A stretch of DNA of 64,000 bases from Struthio camelus (Eukaryota; Chordata; Aves; Struthioniformes; Struthionidae). This document shows positions 3,275-19,196 of this stretch, in pieces. Both the position numbers and the translations under genes were made by a program. How positions within the stretch are numbered: the first letter of the stretch is position 1; each line of letters begins with the position of its first letter. The DNA lies in NCBI RefSeq assembly GCF_040807025.1, contig NC_090968.1, positions 5,507,906-5,571,905 of the forward strand. The letters are read 5' to 3'. The notes under the pieces are model-generated. The model searched no databases, had not been told where the DNA came from, and saw only the letters and a program-made list of their open reading frames with translations.

Positions 3275-6200
3275 ATGGGGCTGTGCAGAGTCTGGATCCC
3301 CGTGGCTCTGCTCGTCCTTGGAGCCGGAGGGGCCCGGAGCCAGGAGGCGGGTGAGTGAGGACGTCCCTGCGCACAGTCACCTGGGGGGGTAGCGATGCAG
3401 CAGAGACGTCCTGCCGTGGGGGATGCTAGTCCCCGTGGGGCTGGGGGAGCGGATCTACGCGTGCTGAGGGGCACAGGAGAGGGTCTGGGGGCTCGCTGGC
3501 AGGGAGCTCCCCGAGGGAGCTGCAGCATGCTGAGCCCGCATCGCCCCGAGGGATGGTGGTGCATCCCAAAGCCACACTGCAACCCAGCAGCCAGGATCCT
3601 GGCGGGGAGTCCTGCGGGGAGCCCCCTCGGGGGGCCGGGCAGAGGCGGGGGGAGGCAGGGGCCGGCTGGGTCTCCACGCTCTACCCGGCAGGCCCGTGCG
3701 CCCTCCATGTGCTGGTGGCCCTGGACGTCACCGACTACCAGCAGTCCAACCTGCACGCCTACCTGGAGCGCATCCTCCGGGACGTGGCCGCGCTGGAGCA
3801 CCTCAGCTGCAGCCCGCTGAGCCCGAGCCTCAGCCTGCAGAGCGCGCGGCCGGACGGCGAGACCGTCTTCCAGGACTGGCTGCACGAGCCCTGGGCAGAC
3901 ACGCTGCGGGGGCTGGCGCGGGCTCACGCCTTCCAGCGCACCTACCTCACCCAGCCCGCCCTGCAGAGCTTCCTGGGCGCGCTGGCGCGCCGGGCGGCCG
4001 ACGCCAAGGTACGGCCCCGCACGCGGCCCCGCCGGGCCCCCTGGTTCCCCGGGGCAGCTGCGCAGCGTCGGACCTCTCCTTGCCCAGGTGCTGCTGGTCT
4101 TCACGGACGGCCTGGACGACGACGCGGGGAAGCTGAAGGAGACAGCGACGTCGGCTGCACTGCAAGGTGCGGCGGCGGGGTGGAGGTGACAGGGTGGCGC
4201 GGGGCTCCCGACTGGGCGAGCGCCGTGTTTGCGCTGTCACTGGCGCGGGCTTGCAGGCGATGGGGTGCCCATGGGCAATGGGGCGATCGGCTGCACGGCA
4301 TGGTGTGCCAGCCCCGCTCCACGTGCCGCCCCACGGCACCCTCTCCCCCCAGGCCAGGCTGACATGCTGGTGACGGTGGCGGTGAACAACGCCAGCAGGC
4401 TCGAGGACCTGCAGCTGGTGGAGTTCGGGCGCCAGCTGGGGACGGGCCGGCAGCTGGCCGTGGACGTGCCCGAGGTTGGCGGGCACGTGGCACAGGAGCT
4501 GGTAAGGCCGGGCTGGGGCCGGGGCCAGGCTGGGCGGCCCCCGGGGGAGCCTGTGCGGGCTCTGCACGCCTGCATCGCCCTCTCCCCGCAGCTGGCCCTG
4601 GCCGAGCAGACGTGCTGCCACTCTTGTCCCTGCACCTGCGTGGGGCTGCCGGGCCAGCGGGGCCCCGCGGGCCGCCGGGGCAGCAAGGTAACGCGGTCGG
4701 GGCGGCGGGCAGACGCGGGAGCCGTGACCCGGCTGCGCCGGGGCCGCGACCGAGTCACATGCCTGACGAGCTAAGTCAGCGGTGCGGGAGGCTGGGGCAC
4801 GTCCAGCTGTGCGCACATCTGGCTCTGCACTGCTCCAAATGGGCACCAGGGGGATTGGCTTTCTGTTTGTTTTCCTTGTGTCTGAGCAGAGTTTAGACCT
4901 TTCCCTTTCCCAGCCGGGTGGGATAGGTTTCCCCCGGCCCCCGGGCCGTGTCTGCAGGAGGAGAGCAGTCCCCAGGCTGGCCCGGAGCGGGGCCATCCCT
5001 CCCGGCCCCCTCCACTGGGCACGTGGGCTGCGCACTGCTGAGCTGGGTCTTGAGGCCGAGTCGGGTCTGCCCTGCCCGGATCCTGGTGTCACGGCGGCTG
5101 CTTCTGTCCACGAGTGTCGAAGCACTAAGCAAAGCGGGGCTTTGGCCCAGGGAAAACCGAGGTGGGGGGTGGAGGGCTTTGGGAGCTCGCGCAGGGGACC
5201 GGCAGCCCGTGCGGCATACGTGGAGCCCCTCATCCCCTTCCCAGGGCGCAGCGGAGCCCTGGGAGCTCCGATCAGCTCGATGCCTTGCCCCGAGCTGGGG
5301 CGAGGGAAAGGCCATCGCGTCCCGAGGCGAGAGCTCCTCACGCTGTCCGCGATGCTCTCCCTTTCTTCCCCAGCCTGGGAAGGGAGCCCAGCTGCCTTGG
5401 CTCCCAGCCCGGGGTCTGTCACCGGGCCGGGGGGTCGCGGTCGCCTCTCCCAGGGCTGGTCTCTCTCCTAGGGGGTGAGAGGCAGCAAGGGGCGCGCTGG
5501 AGACGAGGGCGACCACGGGCACAGCGTGAGTTGGCGGTGGGACCCCGTGGGGGGGGTGGAGGGGGGTCCCGGGGGACAGGCCGAGGGGAGCAGCCCTCCC
5601 TGGCCGGGCTGGTGCGGCGCAGCCTGCGGGCGTGCAGCGAGGGCCGTCGGAGCCCGGCCAGGCCAGCTCTGGCAAGCAGAGCCGCTGCAGAGCCGGGCGT
5701 CTCTGACGGCCTCCCCTTTCCTCCCACCCAGGGGGAGCAGGGCCCGCAAGGTCTCCCCGGCAGCCACGGCACGCAGGGATGCCCGGGCCAGTGCGGACCG
5801 AAGGTGAGAGGCTGGCGCAGCCCAGTGCGCGTCGCCCCCAGGTCCAGGGACTTGCGGCTGCCCTGCTCTAACCCTCCGTCTCGTTGCAGGGCCTGATGGG
5901 TCACCCCGGGGACCAGGTACGTCCCTGCGCTGCGGTTCATCCCGCGGCTGCTCCTGCCGGCACCAGCGCGGGCACCAGGGCCACGGGAACCTGGCAGCGC
6001 CGGGGGCACCGCGAGGAGGAGGATGGGCAGGGAGGAGACGGGGCCGGGCAGGGGAAGGATGCGGGGCACGGCGGACCGCGGCGCCGGGGGAAGCGGGGCG
6101 AACCCAGGAGGTGGCTCTCGGACGCCGGGCCGTGCGTTCTGGCATCGGGCCGGGCCGCTCGCTTTGCAGGGACCGCCTGGAGAGGCCGGCTACGACGGCG

Positions 6201-9200
6201 TGGACGGGGAGCAGGTGAGCTGCTGCCCTCTCCGCTCCTTGCCTCCGATCCACCCCGCGGCCGCCCCGGCAAGCTGGGTCCTGCCGGCCGCGCGGGCACA
6301 GCCGCCGGAGCCAAGCTGGGCACGGACACCTCTCTCATTCCCAGGGCGAAGCAGGAGCCCTCGGCCGCCCCGGAGAGAAGGGAGCTCGGGGCAGGCAGGT
6401 GAGAGCTGCAAGGGCCGAGCCACGGGCGAGCGTTGCCTCCTTTGCCCATTGCTAAATCCTTTCCTCCTGCCTTCGCGCAGGGGCAGAAAGGCTCCCGGGG
6501 TGTACGGGGGGAGCAGGGGCTCCCAGGCCCTCCCGGCGAGGCGGTGAGTAGGGGCAGGCACGAGCGGGGCACTGCGGGGGCGACGGGGGCTCTCTGACTC
6601 CCCTCTCTGCTCCCCAGGGGCCACCGGGGAGGAGCAGCCTGCAGCCCGGCATCCCGGGGTGGAGAGGAGACGGGGGCCCCCAGGTAAGGGCGCCTGGGGG
6701 GCCGGGACTCCACGGGGGGATGCCGGGTGGTGGTGGCAGCAGGAGCGTTTTGGGGACAGGAAATGCGGGGAGGGCAGCCAGAAGCTCTGCTTCTGCCTGA
6801 GTCCTCAACGCTTTCCAGGGAGACCCCGGCGAGGACGGCCCCCCCGGGCCGCCAGGGCCACCGGGCCCCTCGGCACATCCGGTAGGTGCCTCGAGAAGGG
6901 CAAACAGCTCCTTCGCCTGCCCGTCGGCTCCGAGCCCCCTTTCCTGGGCTGCAGCTGGGCGTTGCAGGCCAGCTCGGTGCCCCCCTGCCACGCTTCCCTG
7001 CGTGCCGGCGCGGGTGGCTGCCACGTGCGTCGGGGTGGCAGCTGACGGCATTTCTCTCCGCAGAGCTCATGCCTGAAAGGGCAGAAGGGCGTGCAGGTAA
7101 GGCCGCATCGATGCCCTGGGGTCTGTGTCCATCCTGGGTCCTGGCTCCAGTCCAGCAAACTGCACCTCAGCCCCAGCTAGAACCCAGCAGCTCAGCTCCT
7201 ACCCCACCTTGAGCCTTGTGCCATGCCCCTCCGGGATGGGGCAAAGGGCCCAGGCGTCCGGTTCCCATCCCGCTGGCTCTCTGCCCTGGCAGGAGCAAGC
7301 TGGGAGCCTGAGCATGCTGTTTTCCCGCAGGGCAGGAGGGGCAACCGCGGCAGCCCGGGCCCCCAGGGCGAGGAGGGCTACGGCGGTGCGCAGGTGAGGC
7401 CAGGGCAGCCCGGCAGCCCCCGCGGCCCCAGCCGGGCTGCTCTGCTGCCCCCGCTGCTCTCTCTTTGCAGGGGCCGCCGGGGCCGCGGGGGCCGAAGGGT
7501 GTCACTGGCCACCTGGGGAGCAGAGGACTTCAGGTGCCGTGCCCATCCAGTGCGCCGAGTGCCCCCGCTCACCCCCCCCGAGCCAGCCTTGCCTGGGGGC
7601 AGCAAGCGCTGCCCCATGGGCATCCTTGATCCACCTTTGCCTTTCACCCAGGGCCTTCCCGGAGCCGTGGGCTCCCTGGGAGAAGCTGGGCCACCCGGCC
7701 CTAAGGGGGAGAAGGTGAGCGGCAGCACGGGTACCATCGCACAGCCCCTCCGGCACATCCCAGCCAGCAGCCCTCTCTCTCCTCCAGGGCCAGGCAGGAG
7801 CTGGGGGCAGGAAGGGGAGCGCAGGACCGCGGGGGCCCAAAGGAGCCCTGGTAAGGCCGGGGCTTGGGGTGCTCAAGGTGGTGCAAGAAATCCCCAGCCC
7901 CTTTCGGGGATGCAGCATCCTGCGTGGAGGCTGCCCTGCGCCCGGGCGAGAGGATACTCGGAAAAGGATGTGGTTTGTGTAGGTCCTATAGCCTGCTTTG
8001 GGATTTTCTACCTGCTTAGGGTGAGAATGGCTGTGACACGAGAGGAGCTCCCGGGAGGAAGGGTGCAAAGGTGATGACAGCAGCTCGTGTTGGAGCGTTA
8101 CGGGAGCCTGGCAGTCGCCATCCCTGGGTTTCTTGCCCCCTCCCCGCTGCATTGCTGCTTACCAAGCCCCGCTGGCTCTGCTTCCCCCCCAGTCCTGGCT
8201 GCGAGTGTACAAGCAGCGCGGCGGCGTCCCCAGCCCTGCCGCACTCTGCCGCTCGCCCCAGGCCAGCTGCATTTCAGCACGGGGGAGGCGATGGAGGCCG
8301 GCAGGCAGGAGGGCCCTCTGGAGCCTGGACTGAGCTCGATCGGGTGCGTGGGGCTGGGGTCGCATCGTGCTCACCCACGCTGCTTTCCTCAGGGCTTGCC
8401 AGGAGTGCCAGGACACCCCGGGGCTCAGGTGAGTTTTGGGGGCAGGGGCTGGCCTGGGGAAGAGGGGTCCATGTGGGCAGCGCAGAGGGGATGGGGACAT
8501 CCAGGACTGCCAGGGCCGCCCCACGCAGGGAGGCGCTGGGGCTGCTGGTAGGGATGGGGTCAGCTCCCTCTGAATTTTTGCTCCAGGGTGAACGTGGTGA
8601 GAGAGGAGAAGTGGGAGACAAGGGTGCCCGAGGACTGCCTGGGCGCAGGGTGAGTACAGCGCAGCCACCCTGTCCTGGCAGCACCCGCCTTGTCCCTGGC
8701 ATCTCCCTGCTCATAGGGGCCAGGCTGCCCTGGCTCACCCCAGGGTCTGGGTGCTCATCTTTTCCATCAGGGCATCCCTGGGAGCAGAGGAGAAACGGGC
8801 GTCCACGGCAGCACGGGACCTCCAGGAGAGATGGTGATTCCCTGCCAATTCCCTATTTGCTGCAACATTTCTGCCTGCAAAAATCCCCATTTCCTGCAGA
8901 GAACTGGGAAACCTCAGTGCTCGGGGATTTGTCCCTCTTATCCGACCACAGTATTAACGCTACCTTTCCTTGCGTCCCCTCTCCCCGCTGCACCCAGGGC
9001 CTGCAGGGCTTGCCGGGCGTTCCCACCTCCACGGTAAGGGCTGCTGGTGCGGGGCTGGCTGGGGACGGGGACCCGGCCTCACCGCGAGGCTGCAGGGGGC
9101 TCTCGGGGGTCAGGGCTTTGCTCGGAATAGCTGGGACATAGGAGACGGGCGGGAGAGCTGGAACTGACCCTGCTTCATGCTTGCCCTCCAGCCTTGCGAG

Positions 9201-12065
9201 CTCAAGGCCTTCATCCGGCAGAGCTGCGGTGAGTGCCCAGGCCAGCGGCGGGGGGACGGTGGGGAGGGGACGGGGACCGGCTCGGCGGGGAGGTGGGAGG
9301 CACCGCGGCCAGGCAGGCAGCCACGGGGACACAGGGACAGCCGGGTGCAGAGCTGGGGAAGGAGGCGGCTGGATGCACGCCGAGAGGATGCACAGTCGGA
9401 TGCTGCAGGTGGCCAGACGGGCAGTGCGGATAAGCAGGCTGCAAGGCACAGCCTGCAACGTGGGGCAGGTCTGGAGGGGCTCCCTGTCCCCCTCCAGCCT
9501 CCGTCGCCCCCTCCTGCCCCCTTTTCCCCATGGAGCTGGTACTGGTGCTGGAGATGTCGGCCACCGTGTCGCCCGCCCTCTTCTCCCGCATGAAGGACGT
9601 CCTGGCCTTCCTGCTGCGTGACCTGCACGTCTCGCCGGCGGGCTGCCCGGCGGGGGCCCGCGTGGCCCTGCTCTCCTACGCGGCGGCGCCCAGCTACCTG
9701 CTGCGGCCGGGCGGCGCGCCGAGCCGGGCGGTGCTGCTGCGGCGCCTCCGGGGGCTCTCGCCCATGCGCTCGTCGCAGCGGGGCCGCCTGGCCGCCGCCG
9801 TGCGCTTCGTGGGGCGCCACGTGCTCAAGCGGGTCCGGCGGGCCGCCCTGGGCACCAAGGTGGCCCTGTTCATCACCAGCGGGCAGAGCCAGGCGCTGGA
9901 GGGCATCGGGGCGGCTGCCCTGGAGTGCGAAGCCCAGGGCATCCTGCCGGTGGTGGTCACCTTCAGCCCGCTGCCCGAGGTGGAGCGGGCTTTCCAGGTG
10001 AGGCACGAGGACGGGCGCTGTCGGCCGAGCCCGCCGCCCGCCCGGCCGTCAGCCGCCGCCTCTCCCGCAGGTGAACAGCCGCTTCCAGGTGGTGCAGCTG
10101 CAAGCTTCGGAGCCGGCCGGGGACGCGGCGGCGCTGCGGGAAGCCGTACTGCCCTGCGCCCTCTGCTTCGGTAGGCAGCCGGCGGGGCGGCCCCGGGGCT
10201 GAGCACCGCTGCCGCGCCTGGCTCACCCCGCTGCCCTCCGCAGACGTCTGCCGCCCCGGGCGCTGCGCCGCCGCCACCTCACCGCCCCTCGGCTTGGACA
10301 CCGACCTGGCCCTCGTGGTGGACAACGCGGCGCCGGGGCTGTCGGCGGAGACGCTGGAGCTCGTCGGCTCTCTCCTGGGCAGCCTCCTGGGGCAGCTGCG
10401 GATGGAGGCGGAGGCGGCGCGGCGCGGTGCCCGCTTTGCCCTGGTGCTCACGGGCCCCTCCGTCCCCGGGCAGGGCTTGGCGGAGCTCCCCTGGGGGCAG
10501 CCCGGCTCCCTGGAGCAGCTGCGGGAGCGCGTGCGGCGCGCGCTGGTGCCCCGGGCGGCCGTAGCGTCCGCCAGCCGAGCGCTGGCCTGGACCCTCCGGC
10601 AGGGCTTCCCGCGGGGCTCGCGTGCCCGCCGCCGGCTCCTGCTGCTCGTGGGCACGGGGGCAGCAGAGCTGTGGGAGGCGGAGGCGCAGGAGGCTCTGGC
10701 CCGCTTCGCCGAGTGCGGGCACTTCGGCGTCCTGGTGCTGGCCCTGGGCCGGGCCGGGACGGAGCGGCCGGAGGCGGCCCTGCCCGAGGCGCTGGCGCGG
10801 CCGGCGTGGCGGTACCACTCGCTGCGCCTGGGCTCGGTCCACGCGCCGGAGCTGGCGTACGCGGAGAGGACGGTGCTGGGCTTCCTCCGGAGGCTGCAGG
10901 GTGAGCGACGGCGGGGAGCCCGCGCAGCCTCGAGCATCCCCGGCTCCCCAAAAACCTCTTTGCTGCCACCTCCGTCACACCTCTCCTCTTGCTTCTGCTT
11001 TGCAGCAGAAACCAGCGCCCTGGCTGATGCTCGGTGCCCGCCGGAGCTGCCCACCTCCGGCCCCGGGACCGCCGGGCTGCCCCCGGGGAGCGCTGCGCAG
11101 TGAGTGGGTGGCTGCCTGCCCCAGCTCCGGGGACGCGTCCTGCCGCGGCCCCCCCGGCAGGACCCGCTCTCACTCCCCGCTCCTCTCGCAGAGCCCTGGA
11201 GGTGCCCCCAGCCAGGGGGGACGCGGCAGCCCCCGGGCGCAGCAAGGGCCGCCGGGCTGCCGGCCGCCCCGGGCTGTGCGCCCTGGACAGGGACCCCGGG
11301 ACCGCGTGCGCCAACTTCTCCCTGCTGTGGTACCACCGGCCGGACACGGGGTCCTGCGAGCGATTCTGGTACGGCGGCTGCGGAGGCAACGCCAACCGCT
11401 TCAGCAGCGAGCGGGACTGCATCCGCGCCTGCGTCGGCCCAGGTAGGAGAGGCCGGGCGCCCTCCGCGGCGCGGGCACCCTGGGCGCGGGGTGCCTGTGT
11501 GCGCCGGGGCGTCCTGCAGCCCAGCCCCGTGCGGAGGGGCTGGCGGGCGTCCGGCCTCGCTGCGGCTGCTCGGCCGACGCTGTGACACTGTGGCAGGTCC
11601 CGACGGAGCCGGCGTGGGCGAGGGGAACCTGACGCAGGGTAAGGAGCAGGCGGCAGGGCTTTGGGTGTCTTTCCGGAGGGGAAGAGGGGGTGACACTTGA
11701 GCAGAGAGAGGCCAAGTAGGAGGTGCAGGGTGAGAGAGCTCCGACGGCCGGGGCGCCGGGTGCGTTTCCCGCGCGCGGGCTGGCCGAGAGCGTGCCCTGC
11801 CGCCTGCCTTGCAGCAGCCTGCCTGGAGGAGAGGGACGCGGGGCCCTGCCACTCCTACACCCCCAAATGGTTCTTCGAGGGCCGCCGTCCCGCCCGCTGC
11901 TCGCTCTTCTGGTACGGGGGCTGCGGCGGGAGCCGCAACCGCTTCGAGAGCCGGGAGCAGTGCGAGGCCGCCTGCCTGCCCCGGGGCAGGCTGAGCCCCG
12001 GGTCCGCCGGCCCCACGGCCGCCAACACCTCCGGCTGTGCCCCGGGGCCTGGCTGCGAGGGCTGA
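3275..12065 (+). CDS. Collagen VI alpha-3-class chain, short form with two Kunitz domains
   Basis: Extracellular-matrix collagen chain; my model gives 31 exons and about 1208 aa. Exons: 3275-3350, 3692-4008, 4088-4166, 4353-4501, 4592-4687, 5472-5525, 5732-5803, 5890-5916, 6170-6214, 6345-6398, 6481-6543, 6618-6683, 6819-6881, 7064-7096, 7331-7393, 7471-7533, 7652-7714, 7788-7850, 8020-8070, 8393-8428, 8587-8649, 8771-8833, 8998-9033, 9192-9228, 9498-9997, 10071-10170, 10244-10900, 11006-11099, 11192-11442, 11597-11638, 11815-12065. Order: signal peptide (1-23), one VWA (about 28-205), CCHSCPCTC hinge, Gly-X-Y helix (about 225-562), VWA C1, VWA C2, Kunitz 1 (about 1057-1108), Kunitz 2 (about 1127-1178). 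Helix exons are multiples of 9 nt except 66, 51 and 33, mostly 63, as in COL6 genes. C1 (CPLFPMELVLVLEMS, then FKR/LKRVR-type blocks) resembles COL6A3 more than COL6A1/2. The alpha-3 to alpha-6 chains normally have 7-10 N-terminal VWAs; here the signal peptide joins the last one directly. The exact orthologue is unknown to me. Confidence 0.88.
4592..9033 (+). other. Triple-helix block of the collagen gene (19 exons)
   Basis: Exon 5 ends with the first Gly-X-Y triplets and exons 6-23 continue the helix, every exon in phase 0 and beginning with Gly or restarting the triplet. The length, about 340 residues, equals the 335-336 residue helix of collagen VI and is far shorter than fibrillar collagens or the roughly 528-residue helix of collagen XXVIII. 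Cysteines occur inside the helix (GCPGQCG in exon 7, SSCLKG in exon 14, GENGCDTRG in exon 19). There are two small triplet breaks, in exon 12 (GRSSLQPG) and at the exon 13/14 junction (PSAHPSSC). Confidence 0.85.
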
Positions 12066-14026: not shown

Positions 14027-15578
14027 CTAGGCCCAGTAGACGGGGATGACGCTGCAGAGGATGTTTGCCGTGGTGCTCAGGAGGGAGCGATCGGCCAGGG
14101 GCACGGGGAGCCTCTCCTCAGCCTGGCGGGGAGATGCAGAGAAACATGACGTGCCACCCCCGGAAGCGCGGAGATGCGAGTGGGTGCACCCCACTGCTCC
14201 TGAGCTGGCAGGGCTTTCGCACAAGGAAAGGCACCCGGGGCCGCGCTGCCGGTCTCCGAGGCCCATTTGTGCCATGCCGTCTCCAGTGCCCAGCCCCATG
14301 CGTGCCGAGCGACGCTGCCCGGCGCTCACCTGCCGACGCCGGAAGGCCGCGGTGACGGCGTCCAGCCCCTGGATGTTGTCCTTGTCCATGCGGGTGACGT
14401 AGCAGGCGTGGTGCAGCCAGGATCTGTAGCTGATCAGCAGCTGTTTGCAGACAGACCCGTGTTGGCTTGGTTCCTTGCCACATCCTTCCCACGCGCCGGT
14501 CCTCACCGCCCCTTCTCCACCCTCCCCGCCTGGACGCAGCCCGGGGGCTGCAGCCCGGCCCGGCCCCGCCGGCGAGGTCCCTCCCTGCTCACGTTCTTGT
14601 AGTCGTAGACGACCGTGGCTGGGTTTCCAGCTCCTCCGTCTACACAGAAAGTCGCTGCCTCCTCTTCCCAGCCTGCGGGAAGCCATGGCCAGGCCTCTCC
14701 TCTCTCCAGCCCCTCCACGGTCGTCTGCAGGCCCTGGGACACACGCAAGGGGTTCACCGCCGTGCCGCGGCGTGCACCCCCGGGGCCGCGGGGCCGTACT
14801 TACGGCGTCGGCGCGCTGCTGTGCCACCTGCAGCCACATCAGCAGGGCGCCCGCGATGATGACGACCAGCAGCACCACCACCACCACCACGATGAGGAGG
14901 CACTTGAGGTGGTGGCAGCTGAGGAGCTTGCGGGGCAGGTAGCAGAGCAGGCGAGGCACGAAGCAGAGGCAGCCCTTGAGGCAGGCGCAGCTGGGGTGGC
15001 AGCCGCAGCCGCCGCAGCCGCCGCACCGCCGCACGCACTTGGGGCAGCAGGCGGTGCAGCAGAGCTTGCAGCACGCCAGGGAGCAGCAGCGCATCTCCGC
15101 CTCCTGGGGACACAGCAGAAGCAGAGCGCCGGGGTCAGTGGCAGGTAAGGAGACGGGCAGCCCGGAGATGGGGCAGAGGCTAGGATGGGGCTTGCTTTGG
15201 GGGCAGCTCCCGTCCCATTATCCCCTGAGGTTTGGCAATGCACCGTCTTAGATGCCAGCACCCTGCAGGGTCCTGCTCCATCACGCACACACCAGCACCT
15301 CGCTGGGGGGCCTGAGATCATCAGTGGGTGCTGGGAGCCCCTGGGAAGGGGACCCAGTCACTGTGGGGCCCAGGCCTACAGCAGCCCGACCCCTCCAGGG
15401 ACCCCTCTAGCAACTCGTGCCTGAAGGGAGCAAGCTGGAAAACCCCTCGGTGCCGAGTGGCTCTGCTGGGCGCGCTGGGGACAGGGACGCCCTGAGTGTG
15501 TCCCGTGCCACCCTGCTGCGGGTTGCAGGGACTCACCAGCGGCTCTTCAACCACAACTGGCTTCATGCTGCTCTCCAT
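14027..15578 (-). CDS. Cysteine-rich surfactant protein C paralogue (BRICHOS protein)
   Basis: Type II membrane BRICHOS protein of 229 aa in five exons, minus strand: 15537-15578, 14804-15103, 14593-14733, 14330-14440, 14027-14122. All phases are 0, as in SFTPC. Exon 1 (MESSMKPVVVEEPL) parallels the SP-C start. Exon 2 is twice the usual length. It first encodes a basic, cysteine-rich segment of about 64 residues with 20 Cys, including four CC pairs (CCSLACCKLCCTACC) and GCGGCGC. It then runs into a poly-valine helix ([20 protein letters not shown]), which is the SP-C signature. Exons 3-5 form the linker and BRICHOS domain with VVYDY, the paired Cys (ACYV, ILCS) and the C-terminal IPVYWA. The PPxY sorting motif of SP-C is missing. 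By family knowledge the Cys-rich part would be cytosolic and the BRICHOS lumenal; palmitoylation or metal binding of the Cys is a guess. It is a tandem duplicate of the gene at 17663-19196. Expression site unknown. Confidence 0.88.
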
Positions 15579-15682
15579 GCTGCCACCGCTGCCGCGGGTC
15601 ACCGCCGCCACCACCGCTGCCGCCACCACCTCCTCCTCCTCCTCCTGGCCCAAGCTGCCTCGGCAGCGTCCGGGACCGAGGG

Positions 15683-15689
15683 CTTTATA
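15683..15689 (-). promoter_or_regulatory. TATA box of the cysteine-rich SFTPC paralogue
   Basis: Minus-strand TATAAAG about 105 nt upstream of the start codon. A forkhead-type GCAAACA (15774-15780 on +) lies 85 nt further upstream, inside a 12-nt string shared with the second copy. Confidence 0.65.
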
Positions 15690-15789
15690 CAGGGGCGCTG
15701 GGGGGTGGAGAAGAGGGCGGCCTGTGTGAATGGCTTGGTGGCCGGGGGCGAGGTGTGCAATTCACTTCACTTCTGTTTGCTGACAGCCT

Positions 15790-17190
15790 TTCCTGGAGCT
15801 GGTTTCTGCTGGGAACCTGCTGGTCAAGAGGGTCTGAGGACACTTGTCCCCAGGCACAGAGGCCTCTCTGCTCCTCGGGAGCGGGGTCTCGAGGCCAAAG
15901 TAAACCCTCCTGAGGGGCTTAGCGCTGCCCTCCAGCGTGGAGTATCCGGCGATGGGCGCCGCTGGCTCCCTGCCCGCGTCCCTGCGCCGGCTCCGGCACC
16001 TGTGGGTGCTCGAGATGGGCAAAGCGCAAAGCAGACATCAAAGGTTTCCCACGAAGCGCGAGGCTGGGGCAGGAGCGGGGGCTGTGTCCCCGAAGCCCTG
16101 CCAGGCCGAGGGTGCCGGACACGCTGCTGCGGGGGCGCCTACAGGCTGCATCCGTGTCGGGGAACGAGGGGGGCCCGGGGTCGCCTCTCTGGCGCGTCGC
16201 CCGGGCAGCCGGGACGCGCAGCTCACAGGGTCCCCGGGCATCCCGCGGGCTGCTACCCGCCCGGGGCTCGGTGCGGCCTCCCGCCGGCAGCGCTCGGGGG
16301 GCTGAACCGGCACCTCCTCTGCCTCAGGGCCAAGCGCCTGCTTCGGACAGGATCCTTCCAGCCAGAGGCAGCCCAGGCGGCTCGGTGTGCATGTGCATGT
16401 GTGCGTGTGTGTGTGCGCACACTGCCTCCTTTCCCGGGGTGCCGAGGAGCACAGGAGCCCCTCGAGGGGCTCCCGGCGGCTTGCTCTCCAGCACCGGGTG
16501 CAAGGGAGGCCACGGGAGCGGGAATTTCGAGGAGCAGAGGGCCCTGACCCATGTTTATGTGTGGGGCACGTGTTTCCCCACCCAAGCGCCAGCCCCACGG
16601 GCTCCGTGACCCTCCTGGCCGGGCTGGTCCCCAGCCTGCGGTGGTGGCCACCTGCGGAAAGGTGCCACCGCGCTGCGGGGGGCCTCTGGCACGCACCCTG
16701 CATCGTTTCTCCTCGCAGGGTCTTTTTTCCCCTTCCAGCCCCTTTGAGTCCCAGTTTCCCGGTGCAGCGCTGGGAGGTGCACCCCACGGATGGCAGTGCA
16801 GCCGGCCGCTCCGGGCTGGCGCTCGAGGGCCAGGGAGAGCTGAGCTGCCGGGGGAGCCACCCCATGGGTGCAGCCCGCAGCCCCTGGCCCCGCGGTCACG
16901 CCACGCCGCCTGCACGAGGAGGGCGGACGGGCCGAGAGGGCCGGGACGCTCTCCAGGAGGGCGGCCCGGGGCCCGGCGCGGGTGCCAGCTCTGGCTGGAC
17001 GCGCAGCCTGTGCGCAGCCTGGGAGATGTCAAGGGCTGCTCCTGGTCTCCCTGCACCCCCTGGGTGCACCTGCCTGCCCCGGACCCCGGTGCAGCATGGC
17101 GGCGGGACAGGTTCGGGGCAAGCGGGGAAGGAAGAGAGCCGCACTCGGAGGCCGGGGGAGAGACTTTACTCTGCAGACAGAAGTGTGCAA
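15790..17190. other. Spacer between the two SFTPC copies
   Basis: No exon is recognised. It contains the upstream region of the first copy and a short TG-rich tract at 16384-16422. Long open frames on both strands look like GC-rich chance frames. Confidence 0.5.
16384..16422. repeat. TG-rich microsatellite
   Basis: Short alternating tract (tgtgcgtgtgtgtgtgcgca) in intergenic sequence. Confidence 0.6.
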
Positions 17191-17662: not shown

Positions 17663-19196
17663 CTAGGCCCAGTAGACAGGGACGGTGCTGCAGAGGATGT
17701 TGACGGTGGTGCCCAGGACAGAGCGATCGGCAAGGGGCACGGCGACGGCCCCGGCCTCCTTCCTTTCAGCCTGCGGGAGAGAGAAACCGGGGCTGCCACG
17801 CTCGCCCACCGGCAGCGCTGCTGCAAGGCCGGCACTGCTGCCACGTCACCCCGGGCGCAGGAGGGGTCCCCCCTCGCCCCATCGTGCTGAGCCTGCCCCG
17901 CCCTTGTGTCCTGATGGCACCGGGGCGAGGTCTCGCCCGCCCGCGCCAGGGCGGCCGGAGGATGCGCTCGGCTGCCTGCAGCGCCCGTGTGATGCCTGCG
18001 GCCAATTCAGCTGTCAGCCCAAGCTCTCCCACCGTCGGCCGCGAGCGGCGGCGCCTGCAGCTCGGCTGTGCTCCCTGCTCTGCCCTGTCGCTGCGTCCTC
18101 GGGACCAACTGCCCCGGGTGGTGCATCCTCTGTGGAGGATGCCGGTGTCTGCCGGGCTCGGCTGAGCTGGTTCAGTTTTGGTCGGGTAACCGCAGCTGAG
18201 CGCTCACCTGCCGACGCCGGAAGGCCGCGGTGACGGCGTCCAGCCCCTGGATGTTGTCCTTGTCCATGCGGGTGACGTAGCAGGCTTGGTGCAGCCAGGA
18301 TCTGTAGCTGATCAGCAGCTGTTTGAAGACAGACCCGCGTTGGCTTGGCCCCAGGGCAGCAGCCCCGGCCCGCCACAGTCACCCGCCCCATCCTTTCCTG
18401 TCCCACCCCATCGTGTCGCACAGCTCTCCCCGGACACCCTGTCCCGTCACACCACCGAGCTCTCCTCGCCGCGCACCTTGCTGTAGTCGTAGACGACCAT
18501 GGCGGAGGAGTTCAGCCCGTCCTTCACGGCGAACGTCCCGGTCCTTTCTTTCTTGCTCATGGCGAGCTGCTGGGGGGACCCCTCGCCGTCCAGGCCATGG
18601 ATGGTCATTCGCAAAACCTGCGGAGCGAAGGGAGGCTCAGCCGGGAGAGCACGTCGCAGGCAGGGAAGGGAGCTCCTCCGAGCCTGGTGCACACGGCGTC
18701 GCTGCGAAAGCACCTGGTGCAACAGCCGTGCTGGGTCTAAACCCCGTCCCTGCAAAGAGCCTGCAGCCGATGGCAGTGCCACCAACCGTCCCTGCGCCCG
18801 GCCGAGCTTTGGCTCGTCTCCTCCACTCCCGGCAGTGCCGTGTGCCCGGCGGCACAGCCCGCCCGGCAGACCCTCACCGTTTCGGCGTGCGTCTCGGTGA
18901 TGTGCAGCCCCAGCAGGAGGAAGCCCACCACGACCACCACGAGGAGCACGACCACCACCACGATGATGAGGAGGCACTTGAGCTGGTGGGGGATGCAGGG
19001 CAGGCGGGGGGACGCCGTGTACCTCTGGGGAGACAGGGCAGCCCTGGTGTGAGCCGTGGGTCCAGGGTGGATGTGTGACCGGAGGAAGCAGCCCCGAGCC
19101 TGGGCTCAGCGCCGCACCGGCTCCCCGGACTGGGGCACGGATGCTTCTTACCGGAGGGGCCTCCTCCATCAGTGCCTCTTTGGAGCTGCCGTCCAT
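17663..19196 (-). CDS. SFTPC: Pulmonary surfactant-associated protein C precursor
   Basis: Precursor of the hydrophobic lung surfactant peptide SP-C, made in alveolar type II cells; 183 aa (human 197). Five minus-strand exons in phase 0: 19152-19196, 18878-19024, 18477-18617, 18208-18318, 17663-17770. The N-terminus [17 protein letters not shown] keeps Lys6 and a PPxY motif (PPRY) across the exon 1/2 junction; in human SP-C the equivalent PPDY recruits NEDD4-type ligases for sorting. Exon 2 gives [14 protein letters not shown] followed by a valine-rich membrane helix ending GLHITETH, close to human GLHMSQKH. The juxtamembrane Cys are spaced (C and C seven residues apart) instead of adjacent as in human. 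Exons 3-5 encode linker and BRICHOS domain with VVYDY, ACYV and NILCS, ending PVYWA. Neighbours LGI3 and REEP4 confirm the syntenic locus. The copy at 14027-15578 is a diverged duplicate, so this one is the better SFTPC orthologue. Confidence 0.93.

Follow-up and report, generated by a model that had tools for sequence, protein, structure and literature searches.

What is known of surfactant protein C (SP-C), encoded by SFTPC, comes from a single mammalian gene whose product carries two palmitoylated cysteines. SP-C is expressed in the lung alveoli and secreted as a lipopeptide of 35 residues. We analyzed a 64,000-nucleotide (nt) stretch of ostrich (Struthio camelus) DNA, contig NC_090968.1 of assembly GCF_040807025.1, positions 5,507,906 to 5,571,905 (the window), which carries a second SFTPC-type gene with a greatly enlarged cysteine cluster next to SFTPC itself. 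Three described systems resemble parts of it. Cysteine-string proteins (DNAJC5) contain a long cysteine run and are heavily palmitoylated at the membrane. CRUOX, the cysteine-rich urate oxidase of reptilian skin, is a urate-oxidising enzyme, and is not known to be a membrane protein whose cysteines form a single juxtamembrane cluster. It resembles the gene described here as an old gene whose sauropsid copy is strongly enriched in cysteine (PMC10517255). Salamanders also possess a second SFTPC-type gene besides the classic one (Lewis 2018, PMC6191699). According to that study, it is expressed in the lung in a lunged salamander, and in the skin and the lining of the mouth in a lungless one. The authors proposed that the gene is restricted to salamanders, and named its loss from amniotes as the other possibility (Lewis 2018). 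The word ‘cysteine’ is absent from the main text of that paper, and the comparison with it is by description only. SP-C itself is described as having a cytosolic N-terminus, being palmitoylated in the Golgi and requiring its BRICHOS domain for folding (PMC12621905, PMC8792467). For Nedd4 ligase-dependent passage to late compartments, SP-C reportedly needs its PPxY motif (Kotorashvili 2009 and Conkright 2010, as cited in PMC8792467).

Two SFTPC-type genes are located in tandem on the minus strand of the window, the cysteine-rich paralogue on the left (15578-14027) and SFTPC on the right (19196-17663). Exon borders and Pfam matches indicate that the right-hand gene is an ordinary SFTPC (exons 19152-19196, 18878-19024, 18477-18617, 18208-18318 and 17663-17770). 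It encodes 183 residues, with a PPRY motif and two cysteines before the membrane helix. The paralogue is composed of five exons with AG/GT intron borders, each divisible by 3 in length, and encodes 229 residues. All five exons are in phase 0 at the SFTPC locus, as expected for the SP-C family. The coding part of exon 1 (MESSMKPVVVEEPL, 15537..15578), defined by its borders and translation, contains no PPxY. Exon 2 (14804..15103) is flanked by CCCAG and GTAAGT, and contains 300 nt encoding 100 residues, compared to 147 nt and 49 residues in SFTPC exon 2 (19024-18878). Its borders, cysteine count and a motif scan place a 20-cysteine juxtamembrane region, a PRLLCYLP motif and the poly-valine helix in it. 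The linker and the start of BRICHOS are encoded by exon 3 (14593..14733; borders and Pfam), the BRICHOS core by exon 4 (14330..14440) and the end of BRICHOS and the stop codon by exon 5 (14027..14122; exon borders). Compared to SFTPC, exons 1 and 5 are shorter by 3 and 12 nt, respectively. Among the best-scoring candidates in the 1.45 Gb genome, a full-length cysteine-rich exon is found at this locus only, and SP-C propeptide exons at these two genes only. The earlier note on this DNA had claimed an SFTPC paralogue with an exon 2 of 100 rather than 49 residues; the gene is indeed complete, with an intact frame, and our analysis showed that it is an intact, ancient tandem paralogue of SFTPC, of which one copy was found in this genome.

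The paralogue shares with SFTPC (PF08999 and PF04089) the five phase-0 exons, the poly-valine helix and BRICHOS, and differs from it in having 20 rather than 2 cysteines before the helix, an extra PxLLxxLP motif and no PPxY. The 20 cysteines include four CC pairs, and CC and CxxC motifs are plentiful. Over the 80 residues that precede the helix, K+R minus D+E gives a net charge of +7. The helix is intact, with 8 valines in 21 residues. BRICHOS is complete, its match of 52.6 bits covering positions 2-91 of a 91-position profile. The SP_C-Propep match scores 34.5 bits and spans positions 34-76 of 96 (Pfam cut-off 25 for both). These data uphold the earlier description of a basic, 20-cysteine part placed before an intact helix and followed by a complete BRICHOS. 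SP_C-Propep is also matched in 32 of 33 members of the cysteine-rich family (E<=0.5). Two BRICHOS cysteines are conserved among 33 aligned sequences: C174 is present in 90% or more of them, and C221 in every one. Unlike cysteine-string proteins, the paralogue combines its cysteines with a true membrane helix and BRICHOS, and no J domain is among the 4 Pfam families listed for it at E<=10. Pfam and Protein Data Bank (PDB) sequence searches with the cysteine-rich part gave no useful match. Fold searches effectively probed only the BRICHOS part (137-229), and their lectin and ricin-like rows, with E above 0.06, were dismissed as chance.

The cysteine-rich design recurs across sauropsids. A search of 5.8 billion proteins with the window paralogue yielded 117 relatives, and searches with a crocodile record and a chicken record yielded 107 (including turtles and lizards) and 29, respectively. 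The closest relatives of the window paralogue are in ratites: emu (83%), followed by rhea (77%) and by kiwi, at 82% across 87% of the query. The earlier note had named disrupted exon 2 frames in close relatives as grounds for rejection; the predicted models of all three instead preserve the frame through exon 2, although the kiwi model begins within the cysteine-rich part and the emu model upstream of the expected start. Counts of cysteine in the stretch of at most 80 residues that precedes the helix are bimodal among 184 proteins, which comprise all 182 fetched database records and the two window proteins: 59 have 8-29 cysteines and 125 have 0-6. This distribution puts the cysteine-rich region far beyond chance. 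The 59 are the window copy and 58 records, from named birds (38, a few species being counted twice), turtles (6), lizards (7), a crocodile (1) and sources without a name (6). The turtle, lizard and crocodile records rule out a region confined to birds. No named mammal or snake is found among the matches; mammalian SFTPC is not listed there either, so this absence weighs little. In ten bird pairs, the two paralogues are on equally long contigs, which we read as one and the same contig. A simple pattern finds the first BRICHOS cysteine in 53 of the 59. Five of the other six end before reaching it, and the sixth is a chicken isoform. A loss of both BRICHOS and poly-valine in chicken, considered for P0097, was dropped, since P0097 is one isoform; by eye, P0182 continues past exon 3 into an apparent exon 4 in another frame. 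In turtle records P0118, P0119 and P0123, the cysteine-rich part consists of near-tandem CPxCxxCC units and is variable in length, suggesting that it may have grown by repeat expansion.

Two motifs follow the same division. PxLLxxLP (P.LL..LP) is present in 59 of 59 cysteine-rich proteins, and the distance from its end to the helix is 11 residues in 55, 12 in 3 and 14 in 1. Outside this set it is found in 3 of 125, all short records with the bird version PRLLCYLP (P0026, P0036 and P0037); such partial models slightly blur the split. PPxY is found in 2 of the 59 cysteine-rich records, both from turtles, versus 95 of the 125 others, an approximate contrast in that several records in both groups have no true N-terminus.

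A tree of the helix and exon 3 (49 chosen sequences, 82 columns, crocodile copy excluded) separates 27 cysteine-rich rows from 22 SP-C rows on one branch with a support of 100/98. The support is 99/98 when two long tinamou rows are removed, and a tree joining both bird paralogues is rejected (p 0.025). The cysteine-rich clade implies that the duplication predates the divergence between lizards and the line of turtles and archosaurs, and one duplication before that split is the simplest account of these sequences. On that account, the sauropsid paralogue would be about 280 million years old. Two points limit trust in the tree: it uses only 82 columns, and within the clade lizards group with birds (97/83) to the exclusion of turtles, at odds with the accepted species order.

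Exon 4 has a different history. Exon 4 of the paralogue and of SFTPC (18208-18318) are identical at 110 of 111 bases. The match extends into the introns, covering about 30 bases on the upstream side, of which 28 are identical, and 8 on the downstream side. Elsewhere the base identity is lower: exon 3 has 54.6%, intron 3 has 60.5% and exon 5 has 82.3%. At the protein level the two genes share 36 of 37 residues in exon 4 and 16 of 47 (34%) in exon 3. The earlier statement that all other exons match SFTPC thus holds for structure, in phases and borders, and fails for the sequence of exon 3 and the lengths of exons 1 and 5. In a tree of exon 4 (37 columns), paralogues mix by species, with 8 label changes, at least 6 of them forced by well-supported branches. 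The rhea pair is joined at 100/98, and a single cysteine-rich clade is rejected (p 0.0005). We compared 15 pairs, 5 of which combine two related species. In exon 4 the mean identity is 0.80 within pairs and 0.70 across pairs, and it is higher within in 162 of 210 comparisons. There is no rise in exon 3 (0.34 within and across; 85 of 210), for which the crocodile figure is unusable because the record looks mispredicted there, and hardly any in exon 5 (0.73 versus 0.71; 105 of 210). Judged from these comparisons, gene conversion of exon 4, the BRICHOS core, is as good as certain in this genome, strongly supported in rhea and likely to have been repeated in other lineages. Tinamou and crocodilian pairs, each from two species, show a similar exon 4 likeness, less clearly than rhea.

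The paralogue is evidently transcribed somewhere. Record P0035, from a passerine-like source, joins the five exons in one 735-nt frame on a 957-base contig. Four introns cannot fit in the remaining 222 bases, and we therefore regard P0035 as a spliced transcript, of the kind that the earlier note had called for. We take its tag ‘lgn’ to denote assembled public reads. Record P0117 shares 89 identical residues with it from the start of exon 2, and reads through the 195-nt intron between exons 1 and 2. Upstream of the paralogue (15680..15800), comparison with SFTPC identified a TATAAA 111 bases and the 12-mer TCAGCAAACAGA about 205 bases before the ATG. Both the 12-mer, a candidate FOXA-like site, and a TATA box are found upstream of SFTPC as well. 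Common words of that length also arise in 65 of 2000 shuffled pairs, so the shared 12-mer alone is modest evidence.

We propose that the paralogue is a multiply palmitoylated membrane lipoprotein that travels off the lamellar-body route of SP-C; by analogy with SP-C, we give this proposal about an even chance. Like SP-C, it would be a type II membrane protein, with BRICHOS in the lumen, where it would serve the poly-valine helix as an intramolecular chaperone. The same plan as in SP-C would place the extra cysteines in the cytosol beside the membrane, where the cluster may be S-acylated many times in the Golgi. The acylated segment of 60 residues would then lie along the membrane and hold onto it, with PxLLxxLP as a putative interfacial hinge. 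Since PPxY is absent, the protein is predicted to bypass the ubiquitin-ligase and multivesicular-body pathway of SP-C and to take a route that does not lead to the lamellar body. The Golgi, the plasma membrane or another lipid-rich epithelial compartment would be the expected site, where the protein may organize lipid layers. The cysteines vary in number, whereas the helix, BRICHOS and PxLLxxLP are retained; we therefore favor multiple acylation over both a metal cluster and a fixed disulfide fold. In its full form the proposal is more tentative, and we consider it somewhat doubtful as a whole: a second SP-C-type lipoprotein of sauropsids, whose acyl mat of 15-30 anchors has grown out of the pair of palmitoyl anchors seen in SP-C, taken off lamellar-body sorting, with a BRICHOS exon held SFTPC-like by repeated conversion, organizing membrane lipid at a respiratory or epidermal surface.

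Several observations weigh against this proposal. The PPxY contrast is approximate, as noted above, and turtle cysteine-rich copies retain PPDY, PPHY or near misses (for example PLHY). The PPxY route is itself unsettled, since a screen reported in PMC11790967 did not find NEDD4-2 and the ligase ITCH was pursued instead. In the alignment, cysteine columns C41, C49 and C61 before the helix are invariant and C21, C34, C37, C44 and C47 nearly so, although aligners tend to stack cysteine on cysteine; cysteine spacing may therefore be less free than the counts suggest. The structure model has low confidence in the cysteine-rich part (predicted local distance difference test, pLDDT, of 39-56 for residues 11-60). 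In lizards and turtles this part is barely basic (net 0 to +5) and rich in proline, glycine and serine, a composition that resembles corneous proteins more closely than a cationic palmitoylation site.

The last point leads to the strongest rival, a role in skin or its appendages, where the cysteine-rich region would be cross-linked by disulfides as keratinocytes cornify, like keratin-associated proteins and CRUOX. The gene has so far been found in sauropsid records only, in limited searches; in lizards and turtles, the region is rich in cysteine, proline and glycine; and CRUOX provides a precedent of cysteine enrichment with a proposed skin role (PMC10517255). However, conservation extends to the membrane helix and BRICHOS, neither of which a corneous filler would need. 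We regard a skin role as unlikely. No keratin-associated or metallothionein family is among the 12 families listed for the 33 members (E<=0.5), a search in which profiles handle low-complexity cysteine regions poorly.

A second surfactant SP-C is less probable. The cysteine-rich part would be trimmed, or secreted with the helix, and the product would act like SP-C in the air-lining film. The conserved helix and BRICHOS fit this account, as do the shared 12-mer and TATA box, modest as the former is. In a duck ovary study, SFTPC and an ‘SP-C-like’ gene, LOC110354773, change together: in high-laying ducks they are reduced about 30-fold and 24-fold, respectively (log2 changes of -4.89 and -4.57; PMC10887599, Table 3). 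However, an ordinary duck SFTPC record (P0093) is also named ‘C-like’, so LOC110354773 could be either gene. The absence of PPxY speaks against the paralogue simply being a second surfactant SP-C, and on that basis we classify it as an SP-C family paralogue rather than a second functional SP-C.

We judge a membrane-tethered metal-binding domain, serving as a metallothionein-like cytosolic store or sensor, to be improbable too. It could draw on the abundant CC and CxxC motifs and the eight invariant or nearly invariant cysteine columns, but no metallothionein family is among those listed for the 33 members at the threshold given above, with the same limit on profiles, and the number of cysteines varies between records. 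A decayed copy or gene-model artefact is highly improbable: many records are automatic predictions, and P0004, P0105 and P0128 are among those that are fused, mispredicted or devoid of the cysteine-rich exon, but the five exons with an open frame and intact splice sites, the recurrence of the design across sauropsids and the joined exons of P0035 already contradict it.

The earlier note had presented the protein as undescribed. This stands for the open-access literature, in that no description of the sauropsid cysteine-rich gene is among the papers listed by searches of 5.39 million open papers (most subscription journals are outside this coverage), and a direct search by gene name matched the duck ovary study only. 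It does not stand for public annotation, where the gene is already named ‘pulmonary surfactant-associated protein C-like’ or uncharacterized protein. The role in the lung lining that the note put forward, and the acylation, disulfide linkage or metal binding that it suggested, are hypothetical. New here are the PxLLxxLP motif, the scarcity of PPxY and the conversion of exon 4. With ten times the cysteines of SP-C and no PPxY, the paralogue is a natural experiment on palmitoylation, sorting and the chaperone roles of BRICHOS, and it provides a concrete candidate gene for research on bird and reptile barriers. If it is true that it organizes lipid, mammalian surfactant models have missed something. 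In chicken lung, a single-cell study used SFTPC as a marker (PMC10593216).

Helix composition varies in both genes. An ordinary SFTPC record from pheasant (P0174) has no cysteine before the helix. In the SFTPC helices of P0174 and of P0098 (Eudromia), alanine and leucine replace much of the valine, and the helix is leucine-rich in the cysteine-rich copies of chicken (P0097) and Melospiza (P0041).

A BRICHOS profile search of the whole genome gave six exon matches, none in the window. It misses both window genes because their BRICHOS domains are split across three exons, and is thus no control for the pair. Three other BRICHOS exons are clustered about 2.8 Mb away on the same contig (C27:2706412-2722871; L001, L002 and L004), and probably belong to another BRICHOS gene or genes. 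An Rfam scan of the window gave 0 matches. Directly to the left of the paralogue, a gene on the plus strand (about 5700-12065) contains collagen Gly-X-Y exons and, by eye, von Willebrand-A-like exons and two Kunitz-like exons; we take it to be of the collagen VI/XXVIII type. From about 20370 onward, also on the plus strand, exons with the look of a leucine-rich repeat N-terminal region are found, presumably of LGI3, a known neighbor of SFTPC.
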